From the NCBI GenBank assembly GCA_013361335.1, contig JABFYH010000056.1, forward strand, positions 1 through 48,703: DNA of 48,703 nt, written 5' to 3'. Shown one piece after another: positions 32,211 through 38,459 of the stretch. Position 1 is the first letter of the stretch; each line of letters opens with the position of its first letter. The stretch comes from Gemmatimonadaceae bacterium. GTDB taxonomy: Bacteria > Gemmatimonadota > Gemmatimonadetes > Gemmatimonadales > Gemmatimonadaceae. The translations under genes were made by a program, and so were the position numbers. The notes under the pieces were generated by a model. The model saw only the letters and a list, made by a program, of their open reading frames with translations, searched no databases and was not told the origin of the DNA.

Positions 32211-33989
32211 ATGACCTCTCCCGCCGCTCACCGAACCGGCCCACGCGTCCGGCGCGCCGTGATGGCCGTGCCCTTCATCGCCTGCCTCGTGCTCGCGGCG
32301 CGGTGGAACCGTGAGCCCCTCGGGACGGCGCCCGATCCGGGACGCCCGGGATTCATGCTGCACGACGAGACGGCCGCGGCGGGCATTCACTTCGTGCACC
32401 ATCGACCGACCTTCGATCCGAAGATCGCCAACGTGGAGCCGCACGTCGCCGCGCTCGGCGCGTCGGTGGCGGTGACGGACTTCGACGGCGACGGATGGCC
32501 CGATCTCTACTTCACGAACAGCCGCTTCGGCGAGCCGAACGCGCTGTATCGGAATCGGGGCGACGGCACCTTCGAGGAGGTCGCCGCGAGCGCGGGGCTG
32601 GCGGACCTCAACCGTCCGGGCGACGGCGTGTCGATGGGCAGCGTCTGGGGCGACTTCGACAACGACGGGCGAGAGGACGTGCTGGTCTACCGCTACGGCC
32701 GGCTCGCGCTCTTTCACAACGTCGACGGCCATCACTTCGAGGAGGTGACCGAGAAGGCGGGGCTGCGGCGATGGGTGAACAGCAACGGCGCCGTCTGGCT
32801 CGACTACGACCGCGACGGGCTGCTCGACCTGTACGTCACGGCGTACTTCCGCGACGACGTCGATCTCTGGCACCTCACGACGACGCGCATCATGCACGAC
32901 AGCTTCGAGTTCGCCACCAACGGCGGGCGCAACCTGCTCTTTCACAATCTCGGCGGCGGCCGGTTCGAGGACGTCACCGATCGGATGGGCGTCGGCAGCA
33001 CGCGGTGGACCCTCGCCGCCGCCTCCGCCGACTTCAACGGCGACGGGTGGCCGGACCTCTACCTCGCCAACGACTACGGGCCCGAGGAGCTGTACCTCAA
33101 CGATCACGGCCGGCGATTCGTGCTCGCGTCGGCGGGTCTCGAGAGCGAATCGAAGAGCGGGATGTCGGTCGCGCTGGGCGATGCCTTCAATCGCGGCCGC
33201 CTCGACGCCTTCGTCACGAACATCTCGGAGCGCGGGTACCTGTTCCAGAACAACAACCTGCGACTGAACGGCATGGCGGAGTCCGGCCGCTTCCGCAACG
33301 TCGCCGACCCGCAGATCGCCGATGCGGGATGGGCGTGGGGGTCGCAGTTCGGAGACCTCAACAACGACGGCCGCAACGAGCTGTTCGTCGCCAACGGCTT
33401 CATCTCGGCGGATCGCGGCACGAGCTACTGGTACTCGATGTCGAAGATCGCCGGCGCGAACGGCCGACTGTTCGAGGACGCCCGGAGCTGGCCGGCGTTC
33501 GGCAACGCGAGCCTGTCCGGCTACGAACGGTCGCGCGTCTACCTGAACCGCGGCCTCGCCGGCTGGGTCGACGTCGCGGCCAAGGTGGGGATCACGGATA
33601 CGTATGACGGACGCGCGGTCGCCTTCGCGGATCTCCGCAATCGCGGCGCGCTCGACGTGATCGTCGCCAACCAGAACCAGCCCGCGGTGCTCTACCGCAA
33701 CTCGCCCGACAGCGCGAACCATTGGCTCGGCCTCGCGCTCGTCGGGACGCGGAGCAACCGCAGCGCGATCGGCGCCGAGGTGGTGCTCGAGGCGAGCGGG
33801 CTGACGCAGCGCCGGATCGTGGATGGCGGCATGGGCTTCGCCAGCCAGAACGATCGTCGCCTGCATTTCGGTGTCGGACCGCGCGAGTGGGTGGACCGGA
33901 TCGTCATCCACTGGCCGTCGGGCACGGAGCAGGTACTGCAGCACCTGTCGGTCGACCGCTTCGTCACGGTCACGGAACCGGAGCGCTGA
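32211..33989 (+). CDS. CRTAC1-type FG-GAP/ASPIC-UnbV protein
   Basis: A 592-residue exported protein. A hydrophobic N-terminal segment (about residues 15-32) acts as signal or anchor. FG-GAP repeats with Asp-rich loops follow: VTDFDGDGWPDLYFTN, DFDNDGREDVLVY, DYDRDGLLDLYV, DFNGDGWPDLYLAND and DLNNDGRNELFVANG. The C terminus is an ASPIC/UnbV domain (NHWLGLALVGTRSNRSAIGAEV, RLHFGVGPREWVDRIVIHWPSG). The repeats form a calcium-loaded propeller in relatives; the function is probably surface binding. The downstream RnfD-like gene starts five bases after its stop, a strong sign of a functional pair. No ribosome site is evident before the ATG. Confidence 0.88.
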   Translation: MTSPAAHRTGPRVRRAVMAVPFIACLVLAARWNREPLGTAPDPGRPGFMLHDETAAAGIHFVHHRPTFDPKIANVEPHVAALGASVAVTDFDGDGWPDLYFTNSRFGEPNALYRNRGDGTFEEVAASAGLADLNRPGDGVSMGSVWGDFDNDGREDVLVYRYGRLALFHNVDGHHFEEVTEKAGLRRWVNSNGAVWLDYDRDGLLDLYVTAYFRDDVDLWHLTTTRIMHDSFEFATNGGRNLLFHNLGGGRFEDVTDRMGVGSTRWTLAAASADFNGDGWPDLYLANDYGPEELYLNDHGRRFVLASAGLESESKSGMSVALGDAFNRGRLDAFVTNISERGYLFQNNNLRLNGMAESGRFRNVADPQIADAGWAWGSQFGDLNNDGRNELFVANGFISADRGTSYWYSMSKIAGANGRLFEDARSWPAFGNASLSGYERSRVYLNRGLAGWVDVAAKVGITDTYDGRAVAFADLRNRGALDVIVANQNQPAVLYRNSPDSANHWLGLALVGTRSNRSAIGAEVVLEASGLTQRRIVDGGMGFASQNDRRLHFGVGPREWVDRIVIHWPSGTEQVLQHLSVDRFVTVTEPER

Positions 33990-33994
33990 CCCCG

Positions 33995-34852
33995 ATGACC
34001 TTCGCGACGGCGTCCGTGGACACCACCCGACGGCAGTGGGGGCGACAGCTCGATCCGCGCTACCTGATCGCCGGTCTGATCACGCTCGTCCTGGTCACGG
34101 CGCAGCTGCGCTATCACGTCGTGGGCGGATACGAGCGGCTGGCGTTGGCGCTCTTCGTCTGCGTCGCGACGGAGGCGGTGCTGTCGTGGTTCGACCGGGG
34201 GCACGTCGTCAACCTGCTGAGCGCCTACATCAGCGGCATCAGCCTGACGCTGCTCCTCAAGCCGCAGGGGAGCGCGCTCTGGCCCTTCGTGCTCGGCGGC
34301 ATCCTCGCGATCGCGTCGAAGTACGTGCTTCGCCGCGGCGACAACCATCTCTGGAATCCCACCAACTTCGCGATCGTCGCGCTGCTGCTGCTGGCGCCGG
34401 AGCGGGTGTCGGTGCTGAGCCACCAGTGGGGGAACGATCTCCCCACCAACCTGGTCATCTGGTGCTTCGGGCTGGTGATCGCGGCGCGGGTGCGCGTGCT
34501 GCACATCACCCTCGCCTACGTCATCGCCTTCCTGGTGCTCAACGGATTACGGAGCGTCGTGCTCGGCCAGCCGGTGCTCCCCGAGCTCGCGCCGATCACG
34601 GGGCCGATGTATCAGCTCTTCGTCTTCTTCATGATCACCGATCCGCGGACGGTGGTGCGCGGCCGGCGGAAGCAGATCGTCGTCGCCGTCATAGTGGCGC
34701 TCGCGGAGGTGCTCATCCGTCTCGCGGCCGATCGCGGAGTGCCACTACCCGTCGCCTTCACGGCGGCGCCGGCACTGGTGGCGCTGTGGCTCGTCGGTCC
34801 GATCGCGAAGTGGATCGATCTGCGCTCGACGCGCGGGCGCGTCGAGCGCTAG
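33995..34852 (+). CDS. RnfD/NqrB-like polytopic membrane protein
   Basis: A 285-residue inner-membrane protein with about eight helices. KPQGSALWPFVLGGILAIASKYVLR, DNHLWNPTNFAIVALLLLAP and FMITDPRTVVRGRRKQI match the RnfD/NqrB core. In Rnf and Nqr this subunit carries covalent FMN on a Thr in an S/D-G/A-A-T motif; I do not find that motif here, so it may lack flavin. No other rnf or nqr gene is nearby. The gene is five bases after the CRTAC1-type gene, so the two likely act together, the propeller outside and this protein in the membrane. Its stop shares the bases CTAG with the convergent selenoprotein gene. Confidence 0.82.
   Translation: MTFATASVDTTRRQWGRQLDPRYLIAGLITLVLVTAQLRYHVVGGYERLALALFVCVATEAVLSWFDRGHVVNLLSAYISGISLTLLLKPQGSALWPFVLGGILAIASKYVLRRGDNHLWNPTNFAIVALLLLAPERVSVLSHQWGNDLPTNLVIWCFGLVIAARVRVLHITLAYVIAFLVLNGLRSVVLGQPVLPELAPITGPMYQLFVFFMITDPRTVVRGRRKQIVVAVIVALAEVLIRLAADRGVPLPVAFTAAPALVALWLVGPIAKWIDLRSTRGRVER
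34822..34849. terminator. 13-pair hairpin inside the last codons of the RnfD-like gene
   Basis: GCGCTCGACGCGC (34822-34834) pairs perfectly with GCGCGTCGAGCGC (34837-34849), leaving a two-base centre. It codes for the C-terminal RSTRGRVER tail and runs up to the CTAG where both convergent genes stop. It can terminate or stabilise transcripts from either side. Confidence 0.5.
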
Positions 34853-35430
34853 ACCGAGTATCCCTTCTTCAGCAGGAACGCCCCGGACCTGGCGTAGAAG
34901 GCGTCCTCGGGGAGCTCCCAGCCGAGGGTGTCGGCCAGCCGGTCGTAGGTGTTGAAGAGGAACGCGACGTAGAACGCATCGCGGATCGCCTGGCGGGACA
35001 CCCCGGCGTCGAGCACGTCACGCACCTCCGCCGGCCCAAGCTCGTGCGGGCGGAGCGTGAACACGTCGAGCAGGCCGAGCATCGCCCGGAGCTTCTCGTC
35101 GATGGGAGCAGTCCGATAGTCGTCGAGGACCGGCTCCATCATCCCTCTGCCCAGCGCCGCCTCCGCGACCGCGGAGTGGGCGCGGGTTCAGAAGACGCAC
35201 TGGTTGAGGCGGGACACGAAGGCGGCGAAGATCTCGCGCTCCCCCACGGTCCACGGCGACGGCCCGCGCATGACCTGCTGCGTGAGATCCGTCCACGGCC
35301 GCCCGAAGAAGCTCTTCCGGTACATCAACGTGCGGACGACCCCGGGCGCATGTCCCATGACGAGCCGCATCATGACGAGCATGGCCTTGTCGCGCAGCCG
35401 ATGGCCGCGGTGGACCTTCTCGATCCTCAT
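34849..35430 (-). CDS. AhpD/carboxymuconolactone-decarboxylase-like selenoprotein (in-frame UGA at codon 81)
   Basis: A 193-residue frame from ATG 35430 (ATGA overlap with the upstream gene) to TAG at 34849, broken only by TGA at 35188-35190. Residues before it (EREIFAAFVSRLNQCVF) and after it (TRAHSAVAEAALG, VLDDYRTAPIDEKLRAML, FLFNTYDRLADTLGWELP) belong to one AhpD-like domain. The UGA replaces the second Cys of the CxxC motif: C78-V-F-U81-x3-H85. Family members reduce peroxides or disulfides with that pair; Sec there would raise reactivity. A SECIS-like hairpin follows (35149-35181). A plain nonsense mutation is the alternative, but position, coding quality on both sides and the hairpin argue against it. 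sel genes are not in this window. Confidence 0.88.
35149..35181 (-). promoter_or_regulatory. Bacterial SECIS-like hairpin
   Basis: Counting from the base after UGA, bases 12-17 (CUCCGC) pair with 22-27 (GCGGAG) around the tetraloop GGUC at 18-21. Bases 7-11 (GCCCA) pair with 35-39 (UGGGC) as a lower stem, leaving a seven-base bulge on the 3' side. E. coli fdhF, as I recall it, has GGUC at 19-22 within its apical loop, so distance and loop are nearly the same. The loop begins with G, as bacterial SECIS elements require. Bulge and stem details would need folding and testing. Confidence 0.72.
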
Positions 35431-35804
35431 GCCTGGTCCAGCGCCGCGAGGCCAGCGGCGAGTCGGGTACGAGAGGCACCGAGCGCCGCACTGACGACGA
35501 TCTCGAAGAGCTGGTCGTCGTCGTAGGTCGATTTCAGGCGGGCGAGGTCGTCGTCCGTCACCTTGTACGCATGGTGCCGGATCTTGTGCACGAGGCTCTG
35601 CAGCTCGGCGGGCACCTCCGCCCCATCCGCCGCCGCACGCCGCAGTGCCGGTTCGGTCTGCCCGGGACCATCCAGCACGCTCGCATAGGCGCGGTCGCGG
35701 AGGTCGGCATGCGGGTCGGCGGCCATGGAGGCGAATGTGTACGATCCGTCTCCCGCCGGCAAGTCGGCATCCAGCGCTCGCGGCCGGTGAAGCCATTGCG
35801 CCAC
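35427..35804 (-). CDS. Small carboxymuconolactone-decarboxylase-like protein
   Basis: A 125-residue soluble protein that starts with GTG at 35804 behind GAGG. The core VPAELQSLVHKIRHHAYKVTDDDLARLKSTYDDDQLFEIVVSAALGASRTRLAAGLAAL has the pattern of short CMD-like helical proteins. It contains no Cys, so it cannot carry the AhpD redox pair itself. The stop overlaps the start of the selenoprotein as ATGA, so the two are coupled and are probably partners: this one structural or substrate-binding, the other catalytic. A shorter start at the ATG 35726 is possible. Confidence 0.78.
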   Translation of the reverse strand: MAQWLHRPRALDADLPAGDGSYTFASMAADPHADLRDRAYASVLDGPGQTEPALRRAAADGAEVPAELQSLVHKIRHHAYKVTDDDLARLKSTYDDDQLFEIVVSAALGASRTRLAAGLAALDQA

Positions 35805-35892: not shown

Positions 35893-37506
35893 TCAGCCGC
35901 GCGCGAAGGCCGGCTCCGGCCCCAGCCCGCGCAGGCGCGGCAGCGATTCCATCAGCTCCGCTCGACTCAACCCCAGCAGCGCATGCCGGTCGATCAGCGT
36001 GTCGAGATCCACCGGGTACAGGTTGCGGCGCGCCGGATCGGCCAGCCCCACGACGTTGCGCGGTTCGATCGCCGACGCCATCCAGGCGGCGAACTCGGCG
36101 CGCTCACGAGCGCTGCCCGCATCGCCCCGGCCGTGGGTGATACGGCGCAGGCGGCGCAGGCTCTCGTGCGGCAGGGGCTCGAGCACCGGGTCGCCCACGC
36201 CGAGGAAACCGTTCCATGCTGCGGATTCCTCCGGCATCAGCCGTTGACGCAGCTCGGCGAAGGAGACGGTGGCGAAATACAGCATCGCCTGCGCGGCGAA
36301 GAGATCGAAGTGTGCCATCGCCTCGTACGCGCCGGCGACGACGAGATCGATCTGATCCGCCTCGGCCGTCAGCGCAGACTCGTAGCGGGCGAGGAGGGGC
36401 AGCTCGGGCGTGCGACGGGTCGACGCGACCGCCTCGAAGGCCAGGGCGAGGCGCTCGACCGCGCGCAGCCCCCACGCGATGCCGGTGGAGAACAGCGGAT
36501 CGACGAAGGCGAAGGCGTGCGGCATCAACGCCCAGCGCGCGCCGGACGCGCGGGTGAGCCGATGTTGGACGAGCGGGCTGAACGCGATCGGCATCAGCGG
36601 CGTGGCGCCGGCGAACAGGCGGCCGACGGTCGGATACCGCTGCAGCAGCGCGCGCCAGAGCGTCGACGCATCCGCTCCCTCGAGCTGGAGCGACGCCAGC
36701 CCGCGCGGCGTGACTAGAAAGCCCGCGCTCGTCACCCCGTGATCGAAGCGCAGCGAATACATCCATCCTTCGTCGAGCAGATGGTGCACGGCCGCCCAAT
36801 CATCCGGGTACGGACCGGAGGGCAAGCCGGGCGCCTCGTCGGCCATGAGGCGGGCGCCGTCGAAGTGGCCGAACACGAGCGCCGATCGAGTCTCGGTGCG
36901 GTCGAGATCCGAGGGGATGGAGAGTTGGCGCGCGAGAAAGCCGCCGGGCCCGGAGGCGTCGACGACGAAGCCGGCATGCAGCTCGAGCGGCTCTCCCGCG
37001 CGCATCCCGCGAAGGCGGACACCGTCCGACTTCACCTCGGCCCCGGTGAGCTCGACGCGATCGCGATAATCGACCCCTGCCGCGACGGCCTGACGAACGA
37101 AATGGTGGTCCACGTCGGCGCGTAGCCAATGCGTGTCGGCAAGCGCGTCGTCCGGGCTGGCCGCGACGAGCAGCCGCTCGGACTCGACGCCGCGGTCGGC
37201 GAACGACTCTCCCGGATGATGCCGGTAGAAGGTGAAGCCGCGCTTGAGCCCGCGCCGCACCTCGGGATGGTGGGCGAGCCAGCGACCGTGCGTCGCCAGG
37301 CGATGACAGTCCGCCAGCCCGTAGCGCGTCGCCAGCCGCTCGAGCGACAGGTTGGCCAGCGGCGTGGTGGACTCGCCGATCGCGAAGCGTGGATGCGCGC
37401 CGCGCTCCAGCATGACCACGTCGTAGCCGAGCACCGCGAGCACCCGCGCGAGGAGCGAGGCGGTGAAGCCGCTGCCGACGATGGCGACCTCGCACTGCGC
37501 GCTCAC
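35893..37506 (-). CDS. FAD-dependent oxidoreductase of the tryptophan-halogenase-like group
   Basis: A 537-residue flavoprotein starting with GTG at 37506, which overlaps the upstream stop as GTGA. The dinucleotide-binding GSGFTA (residues 11-16) and IGESTTPL (43-50) are hallmarks of flavin-dependent halogenases and related monooxygenases. A second FAD block reads FVVDASGPGGFLAR, and FVDPLFSTGIAWGLRAVERL closes the cofactor site. The WxWxIP motif that halogenases use to keep out monooxygenation is not found; the corresponding region reads GWMYSLRFDHG. Hydroxylation, dehydrogenation or reduction is thus as likely as halogenation. It is the last gene of a tight three-gene operon. Confidence 0.87.
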   Translation of the reverse strand: MSAQCEVAIVGSGFTASLLARVLAVLGYDVVMLERGAHPRFAIGESTTPLANLSLERLATRYGLADCHRLATHGRWLAHHPEVRRGLKRGFTFYRHHPGESFADRGVESERLLVAASPDDALADTHWLRADVDHHFVRQAVAAGVDYRDRVELTGAEVKSDGVRLRGMRAGEPLELHAGFVVDASGPGGFLARQLSIPSDLDRTETRSALVFGHFDGARLMADEAPGLPSGPYPDDWAAVHHLLDEGWMYSLRFDHGVTSAGFLVTPRGLASLQLEGADASTLWRALLQRYPTVGRLFAGATPLMPIAFSPLVQHRLTRASGARWALMPHAFAFVDPLFSTGIAWGLRAVERLALAFEAVASTRRTPELPLLARYESALTAEADQIDLVVAGAYEAMAHFDLFAAQAMLYFATVSFAELRQRLMPEESAAWNGFLGVGDPVLEPLPHESLRRLRRITHGRGDAGSARERAEFAAWMASAIEPRNVVGLADPARRNLYPVDLDTLIDRHALLGLSRAELMESLPRLRGLGPEPAFARG

Positions 37507-38459
37507 GATGCGCCGCACTCGATGCAGCCGACCGGCGGCTCGGCGATACCGCTCTCGTTCAGCCGCCGCAGCCGCGCGACGCGCCGCTCTCGGCAGGCGG
37601 CGCATCCCGGCAGCAGGGCGACGTCCCACAGATCGGCCGTGACCACGGTGCCCGACAGGGCCAGACAGCGATCCAGCGCCTTCTCGAGCTGCGCGAGCGT
37701 CGGCGGCGTGAATGCGCCGAGCTGGGCGAGCCGCTCCATCTCGCCGTTGCCGCCACGCACCGGGATGATCGACACGACGCCCGCGCCGCACTGCACCGCA
37801 TGCTCGACCGTGCGCACCGTCCACTCCACCGATTCGTCGGCGGGGACGTGTGGCGGCCCGAGAAGCACGAACACGCGCAGGTCGATGCCGTTGTCGATGA
37901 GATGCTGCGCCGCCCGCGCGAAGGCGTTCAGCTCGAGCCGCTTGTTGAGCCGAGCCGCTGCTGTCGGGTGAACCGTTTCCAATCCAACGGCAACCTCGAG
38001 GCGGCCGCCGAGCCGGCGCGCGAACTCCAGCGTCGCCGGCCCGACGACGGTGCTCGCGTGCGACTCCACCGTGACGCCCGCGAACGATGCCACGAGCTCG
38101 GCGATGCGCGGGCGATCGACGAGCGGCACCGCGCGCGGATCGAAGAAGTTGCTCGCGTTGTAGAGCTTGATCCGGCCCGGGCGAGGCGGCGATTCGTCGA
38201 GCGATCGGAGCACCGCCGCCAGCTGCGCCGGCAGTGCGCCTGCGGGGGTGGGGCCGTTCGTCGTCCAGCGCCAGAGATCGCAGAACGAACAGGTGAACGG
38301 GCACTCCGCGCCGGCGAGAAAGACGGTGAGCGCCCGTTCCACCGTGCCGTCGGGGCGGCGTTCGTCCTCGACCAGCGACCCGTGAGCCCGATAGGGATCC
38401 ACCGCCGGCTTCGGCGCGCGGAGGCTCCGAATCCGGCGGTCCTCGGCCGTCGGGCTCAC
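37503..38459 (-). CDS. Radical SAM enzyme of the RaSEA-like group
   Basis: A 318-residue enzyme starting with GTG at 38459 (GTGA overlap). The cluster motif C53-x3-C57-x2-C60 (CPFTCSFCDLW) is intact and is preceded by the LTVFLAGAE strand. IKLYNASNFFDPRAVP, VESHAS, VGLETVHPTAAARLNKR and VFVLLGPPHVP match a family that includes the archaeosine enzyme RaSEA and bacterial relatives of unknown role. The C terminus holds two CxxC pairs (PGCAACRE, VGCIECGAS), a likely zinc site. Its neighbours suggest modification of a small molecule or a peptide rather than tRNA, but that is not proven. Confidence 0.85.
   Translation of the reverse strand: MSPTAEDRRIRSLRAPKPAVDPYRAHGSLVEDERRPDGTVERALTVFLAGAECPFTCSFCDLWRWTTNGPTPAGALPAQLAAVLRSLDESPPRPGRIKLYNASNFFDPRAVPLVDRPRIAELVASFAGVTVESHASTVVGPATLEFARRLGGRLEVAVGLETVHPTAAARLNKRLELNAFARAAQHLIDNGIDLRVFVLLGPPHVPADESVEWTVRTVEHAVQCGAGVVSIIPVRGGNGEMERLAQLGAFTPPTLAQLEKALDRCLALSGTVVTADLWDVALLPGCAACRERRVARLRRLNESGIAEPPVGCIECGAS

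Follow-up and report, generated by a model that had tools for sequence, protein, structure and literature searches.

Locus and reading frame

We analysed a stretch of 48,703 nucleotides from a Gemmatimonadaceae bacterium (contig JABFYH010000056.1; the whole stretch is hereafter called the window), which carries on its minus strand two overlapping genes: one for a protein of 99 residues without cysteine (Cys; 35427..35726) and, directly downstream, one for an AhpD-like protein whose frame holds an internal UGA codon (34849..35430). The second gene runs from an ATG at 35430-35428 to a TAG at 34851-34849 and encodes 193 residues with UGA as selenocysteine (Sec). The TGA at 35188..35190 is the sole in-frame TGA between these codons and specifies residue 81 (M=1), the second position of the CxxC/CxxU motif. 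The active-site motif reads C78-V-F-U81-T-R-A-H85, with Cys78 (codon 35197..35199, minus strand) at the first position of CxxU and His85 (35176..35178, minus strand) at the place of the catalytic His137 of Mycobacterium tuberculosis AhpD; Glu66 (35233..35235, minus strand) lies 12 residues ahead of Cys78, like Glu118 relative to Cys130 in that enzyme. The start codon overlaps the TGA stop of the upstream gene in the sequence ATGA (35430-35427). A preliminary description of this DNA had seen a TGA interrupting a single AhpD-like frame at the second Cys of CxxC, with family sequence on both sides and the ATG on the preceding stop, and the frame at 35430-34849, the family alignments given below and the overlap agree with it on each point.

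The protein scores above the cut-off of PF02627 (CMD / AhpD-like superfamily; 30.4 versus 23 bits), and its alignment to TIGR01926 crosses the UGA (residues 19-171). Because the window protein lies just under the curated cut-off of TIGR01926 (70.9 versus 81.8 bits) and clade member L081 above it (116.9 bits), the clade is a subfamily at the edge of the TIGR01926 kind. NF041238 (AhpD_rel_CFYUT), likewise a model of AhpD-related (seleno)proteins but 357 positions long, aligns with residues 66-175 and stays below its cut-off (40.8 versus 175 bits). E66, C78 and H85 do not vary across the 37 rows of protein alignment A1 (22 of 73 database proteins plus 15 loci, L090 left out), where residue 81 is invariant by choice because the database rows were selected as full-length with Cys; a separate alignment, A4, comprised 30 of 120 listed proteins.

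Decoding of the UGA codon

The aligned codon was compared in 70 distinct loci, after removal of duplicates (identical in the 120 bases around the codon) and of one secondary match short of the codon. It is TGA in 60 and TGC in 10, and the first Cys of the motif is kept in all 70. TGA stands here in 38/38 loci at least 47% identical to the window gene (window included). The 16 named relatives have it without exception; one record bears the title Acidobacteria, the other 15 Gemmatimonadetes, Gemmatimonadales, Gemmatimonadaceae, Gemmatimonas or unidentified bacterium. Genome searches, which scored part of the first-look candidates (12 per genome for the partner, 8 in the larger genomes of the phylum sample), found a match in 54 of 179 family genomes, 48 of them with a match holding exactly one TGA and 6 with uninterrupted matches only. 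In a sample of 395 genomes of the phylum Gemmatimonadota, 109 matched at E <= 1e-10, and the stops in the matches listed were TGA only. Two internal TGA codons occur in one match of this sample; such an AhpD-like match stands at L105 (genome G385).

These counts bear on the possibility that UGA is a true stop, the gene being a pseudogene, split or misread. Such a reading would fit the fragments that open reading frame listing yields here, and the many database pieces of about 111 residues that begin just past the UGA (e.g. P0007 and P0009). A TGA common to all 38 clade loci, the lack of any other stop type in the matches listed and conservation of the protein on both sides speak against it, as do the hairpin with compensatory changes and the sel genes described below, which leave a true stop a negligible probability; pseudogene and sequencing error were rejected on this evidence. 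A misread TGC, a concern of the preliminary description, is ruled out by the TGA in the 38 clade loci and the 16 named relatives.

Cys at residue 81 was found in homologues, as that description had anticipated. Judged from protein entries rather than DNA, P0005 (72% identical) carries Cys in place of Sec and continues after His85 with F-A-I-A-E, versus S-A-V-A-E in the Sec forms, a change that would be expected if the constraint of the insertion signal had gone with Sec; P0025 has Gly and the close relatives P0002-P0004 have W. This printed W could favour reading UGA as Trp or another residue. However, the same triplet ends the overlapping partner gene, homologues other than P0002-P0004 have Cys and not Trp, and tRNA-Sec and SelA are present in the genome. 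We therefore rejected a Trp reading, whose probability is minimal, and the W is probably the source's translation setting. Databases thus hold a subfamily conserved across Gemmatimonadota largely as fragments or with W, because ordinary gene calling cuts at UGA. P0042, a further database protein, joins a partner-like start to an end resembling the C-terminal half of the selenoprotein, without the CxxU region, and looks like a deletion fusion or an assembly artefact.

In an 86-row tree, the branch with the window protein has a support of 100/100 and unites 38 Sec with 17 Cys rows. Cys forms are interspersed among Sec forms, and well-supported branches of the whole tree force at least three Sec/Cys changes; 16 further Cys proteins in it were chosen by hand, rooting was by midpoint and the program warns of long branches. 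With 60 TGA and 10 TGC loci, the Sec/Cys exchange suggested in the preliminary description is thus well founded. Two further UGA-containing copies lack a partner: a second AhpD-like gene of the source genome (L109 2906-3511, G000:C38) has UGA at CxxU and a GGUC hairpin, and L090, a second copy in genome G332, has both UGA and hairpin, with Ser replacing the catalytic His.

Downstream of the UGA lies a predicted bacterial selenocysteine insertion sequence (SECIS) hairpin (35161..35176, minus strand; nucleotides 15-30 with the U of UGA as 1), an insertion signal that the preliminary description did not mention. It has a 6-bp stem, CUCCGC/GCGGAG, and a GGUC loop at 35167-35170, 17 nt from the UGA. 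The bacterial SECIS model, as given in the available part of its report, has a loop of 3-9 nt with G in the first two positions, an upper stem of 4-16 bp, a distance of 16-37 nt from UGA and a minimum free energy of <= -7.5 kcal/mol (PMC13188914); the window hairpin lies within these bounds (GGUC, 6 bp, 17 nt, -18.1 kcal/mol). Folded as a single sequence of 36 nt, the -18.1 kcal/mol corresponds to a z of -1.39, which is not significant, and Rfam gave no meaningful match around the gene (two miRNA families far below gathering). The SECIS of Escherichia coli fdhF has a GGUC apical loop at nearly equal distance from its UGA and differs in stem sequence, the window loop being 1 nt closer.

GGUC occupies the loop position in 54 of the 60 Sec loci, and counted without selection in 38/38 of the window clade and 16/16 of the neighbouring clade B. 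The six Sec loci that remain (L105, L110-L114) form a third group without GGUC at that position. In L110-L113, of the type CxYU.xHHGAGLR, the hairpin by eye seems to sit in another register (CGGAG/CUCCG or similar, with a GGG loop). Among the 54 GGUC loci all six stem pairs form in 52 and five in 2, and three stem types occur (CUCCGC/GCGGAG, CGCCGC/GCGGCG and CGGCGC/GCGUCG). Residues 86/90 are only S-E (16), A-A (24) or G-S (14) in these loci; the two residues change together, so that the stem survives in each type. The 48 distinct rows show G-C (32) or U-A (16) at pair 16-29, and C-G (37) or G-U (11) at pair 17-28. The covariation score of 0.278, although inflated by kinship among loci, compares with a shuffled mean of 0.063, is reached by 0/500 shuffles and exceeds slid controls (<=0.074); counts of both-side pair changes and of further pair types did not exceed shuffles in this 54-locus test. 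The predicted SECIS illustrates how an RNA signal can constrain protein sequence, residues 86/90 of the 54 loci being limited to three stem-keeping combinations.

The Ala-Val-Ala codons are GCG-GTC-GCG in 54/54 loci; in the rest of these genes the share of GCG among Ala codons is 55% and that of GTC among Val codons 42%. The 54 loci were picked for TGA and GGTC at the loop, a selection that predetermines GTC (codon 88) and the closing base of the first GCG (codon 87) but not the last GCG. In the ten Cys loci (nine at 30-36% identity, L046 at 43%) one to four stem pairs are kept, and GGUC is found in none.

The Sec machinery was sought in the source genome, whose draft assembly (3.75 Mb, 230 contigs) is 84% complete, and selA, selB, selD and tRNA-Sec, which the preliminary description had named as a check, were all found. 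The tRNA-Sec gene scores 74.1 bits (gathering 47) with anticodon tca, confirmed by ARAGORN; the model also matches ordinary tRNAs, and only this match was accepted. SelA scores 537 bits (a broad aminotransferase search was not counted as evidence), SelB 310 bits in a gene cut by the contig end, and SelD 365 bits. The selD gene (L115 8385-9308, G000:C98) adjoins the tRNA-Sec gene and itself holds one in-frame TGA, at RCAG-U-AAK. SelA matched in 109 of the 179 family genomes, in 105 above cut-off; with all 109 counted, 15 of the 16 genomes carrying this clade have it (all but G010, 81% complete), as do 43/48 genomes with any TGA-interrupted match versus 66/131 others. In genome G013 (L106 8004-13901), a selD-like gene comes after the partner-selenoprotein pair, and selB and selA come next on the opposite strand; a further UGA-containing AhpD-like gene lies beside selA at this locus.

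UGA is predicted to encode Sec because relatives have Cys or UGA at this codon and a conserved GGUC hairpin follows, and we regard decoding of the codon at 35188-35190 as Sec as nearly certain. On sequence grounds, the position of the UGA, the sel genes, the compensatory changes in the hairpin, the Sec/Cys exchange and a constant two-gene unit can be considered established.

A Cys-less partner gene

The gene for the 99-residue protein (35427..35726, minus strand), whose stop overlaps the selenoprotein start, lies upstream in 35 of the 36 clade loci with uncut flank; L042 and L045, cut by contig ends, were set aside from this count. It was found in 32 of the 395 phylum genomes, and in 32/32 strong matches the gene directly downstream is of this AhpD type, a Sec form in 31 and a Cys form in 1. 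The coupled Cys-less partner of the preliminary description is thus real and constant, and the two-gene unit recurs in about thirty sampled relatives.

The window partner has no Cys and so no CxxC motif. Its structural model (predicted local distance difference test, pLDDT, 94.6) retrieved AhpD-like structures in the first 22 Foldseek rows; because the partner's VIA list re-examines Foldseek rows, absence of a family from it does not count against that family. The model likely has an AhpD-like fold from which the Cys-bearing active-site helix is apparently missing. Profile comparison of partner and selenoprotein gave a weak signal, and their global alignment had no sensible register (P 0.094).

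The same partner-AhpD gene order occurs on a Rhodococcus plasmid (L117 2500-3137), where an unannotated partner frame overlaps an AhpD gene of the Cys form, the frame of which ends early. Compared with plasmids, P0012 gave 131 records, all below 60% identity, and in the one opened (Sphingopyxis) another gene is annotated directly upstream.

Whether partner and selenoprotein form a heteromer is, in our judgement, evenly balanced. The selenoprotein might instead act alone as a homo-oligomer, the upstream gene encoding a separate regulator or chaperone. Homo-oligomers whose active sites are structurally independent are described for AhpD-like proteins in the available part of one report (PMC3141380), and the partner's sequence homology to AhpD is weak. 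Yet the constant adjacency in the Gemmatimonadota sample, the same order on the Rhodococcus plasmid and the AhpD-like structures that fill the top of the partner's fold list make an independent homo-oligomer a fairly unlikely alternative to a heteromer. More tentatively, and short of probable, the pair could be an obligate heteromeric selenoenzyme whose CxxU subunit is active only with its co-encoded pseudo-AhpD, the redox helix of the latter being deleted. It would then be an old module swapping Cys and Sec from phylum to phylum, with the Cys form in Rhodococcus and the Sec form in Gemmatimonadota, perhaps serving reductive dehalogenation beside a halogenase-like flavoprotein. The module offers a way to test whether a paralogue that is likely catalytically empty aids a selenoenzyme as a pseudo-subunit.

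AhpD-like, CMD-like and related CxxU selenoproteins are known, AhpD-like ones in print since 2005, as far as the accessible portions of these sources go (PMC1088965, PMC2398784, PMC9312934, PMC13188914). Like the window protein, the AhpD-like ones (TIGR01926 / COG2128 YciW type) have CxxU at the AhpD CxxC, the same domain and a bacterial SECIS after the UGA. In contrast to them, the window clade has its window member just under TIGR01926 and a constant Cys-less partner; the same portions name no partner for the known proteins. A literature search over titles and abstract beginnings returned nothing on a partnered AhpD selenoprotein or on a Gemmatimonadota selenoproteome. Of the candidate new AhpD-like selenoprotein in the preliminary description, the Sec reading is therefore supported, and subfamily and partner are new; a selenium-containing AhpD as such is already listed in the accessible text of PMC1088965, PMC2398784 and PMC13188914. 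What is new here is the partnered subfamily, the companion gene and the RNA-driven residue covariation.

Putative function and genomic context

The model of the selenoprotein, built with Cys at position 81 (pLDDT 91.9), best matches the AhpD-like structures 6k40 (TMq 0.74), 3c1l and 2prr. Deinococcus radiodurans AhpD (6k40) is the best match among solved structures in both structure and sequence and, from its title and organism, appears to be DR1765. The CxxC of DR1765 matters for H2O2 resistance (PMC8945050); unlike the window protein it is a Cys form, and the available part of the report mentions no partner. The spacing of E66, C78, U81 and H85 equals that of the M. tuberculosis AhpD proton relay Glu118, Cys130, Cys133 and His137, as described in the accessible text of PMC3141380. 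An AhpD-type redox function (hydroperoxide or disulfide reduction) is probable.

SelB would bind the hairpin and deliver Sec-tRNA. The C-terminal Cys of CxxC is the attacking residue in AhpD; by analogy, the selenolate at position 81, helped by Glu66 and His85, would attack the substrate. The selenenic acid could then be resolved by Cys78 as a Se-S bond, which a thiol donor would reduce. The partner, seemingly retaining the outer helices and not the Cys-bearing one, may substitute for a second identical subunit by packing on the selenoprotein, and might shape the active site or dock the reductant. Taken as a whole, we hold with good confidence that UGA is read as Sec and that the resulting AhpD-like CxxU enzyme likely acts as a reductase of hydroperoxides or disulfides, probably in complex with its Cys-less partner.

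Next among the structural matches is the tetrabromopyrrole debrominase Bmp8 (6ohi and 6ohj, TMq 0.68-0.69), similar in fold yet 12-13% identical to the window protein, a likeness of fold only. The strategy of Bmp8 is reportedly shared with deiodinase; a literature search for Bmp8 gave no confirming paper. A selenoenzyme acting as a reductive dehalogenase like these, rather than as a peroxidase, could share a pathway with the halogenase-like flavoprotein encoded upstream (35893..37509, minus strand; frame as queried), a gene with counterparts, likewise upstream and co-oriented, in six other loci (L060, L061, L062, L065, L075 and L108; 68-75% identity). AhpD-like peroxidase-related structures match better, however, the neighbour reaches a weak Trp_halogenase score of 31 bits in the window and 44 in L061, and no halogenase-like gene lies upstream in, for example, L063, L069 and L106, clade loci with at least 4 kb of upstream sequence. 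A dehalogenase of this kind in place of a peroxidase thus appears distinctly unlikely, and dehalogenation as a function very unlikely.

In the neighbour survey, which covered 22 loci, several with short flanks, a convergent FG-GAP/ASPIC-UnbV protein gene (32211..33989, plus strand, in the window) was found downstream in five loci (L060, L061, L069, L075 and L108; 78-88% identity). The shared neighbours may reflect inherited gene order or a functional link. Between this gene and the selenoprotein gene lies an NQR2/RnfD/RnfE-family gene (33995-34852, plus strand) whose stop overlaps that of the selenoprotein.
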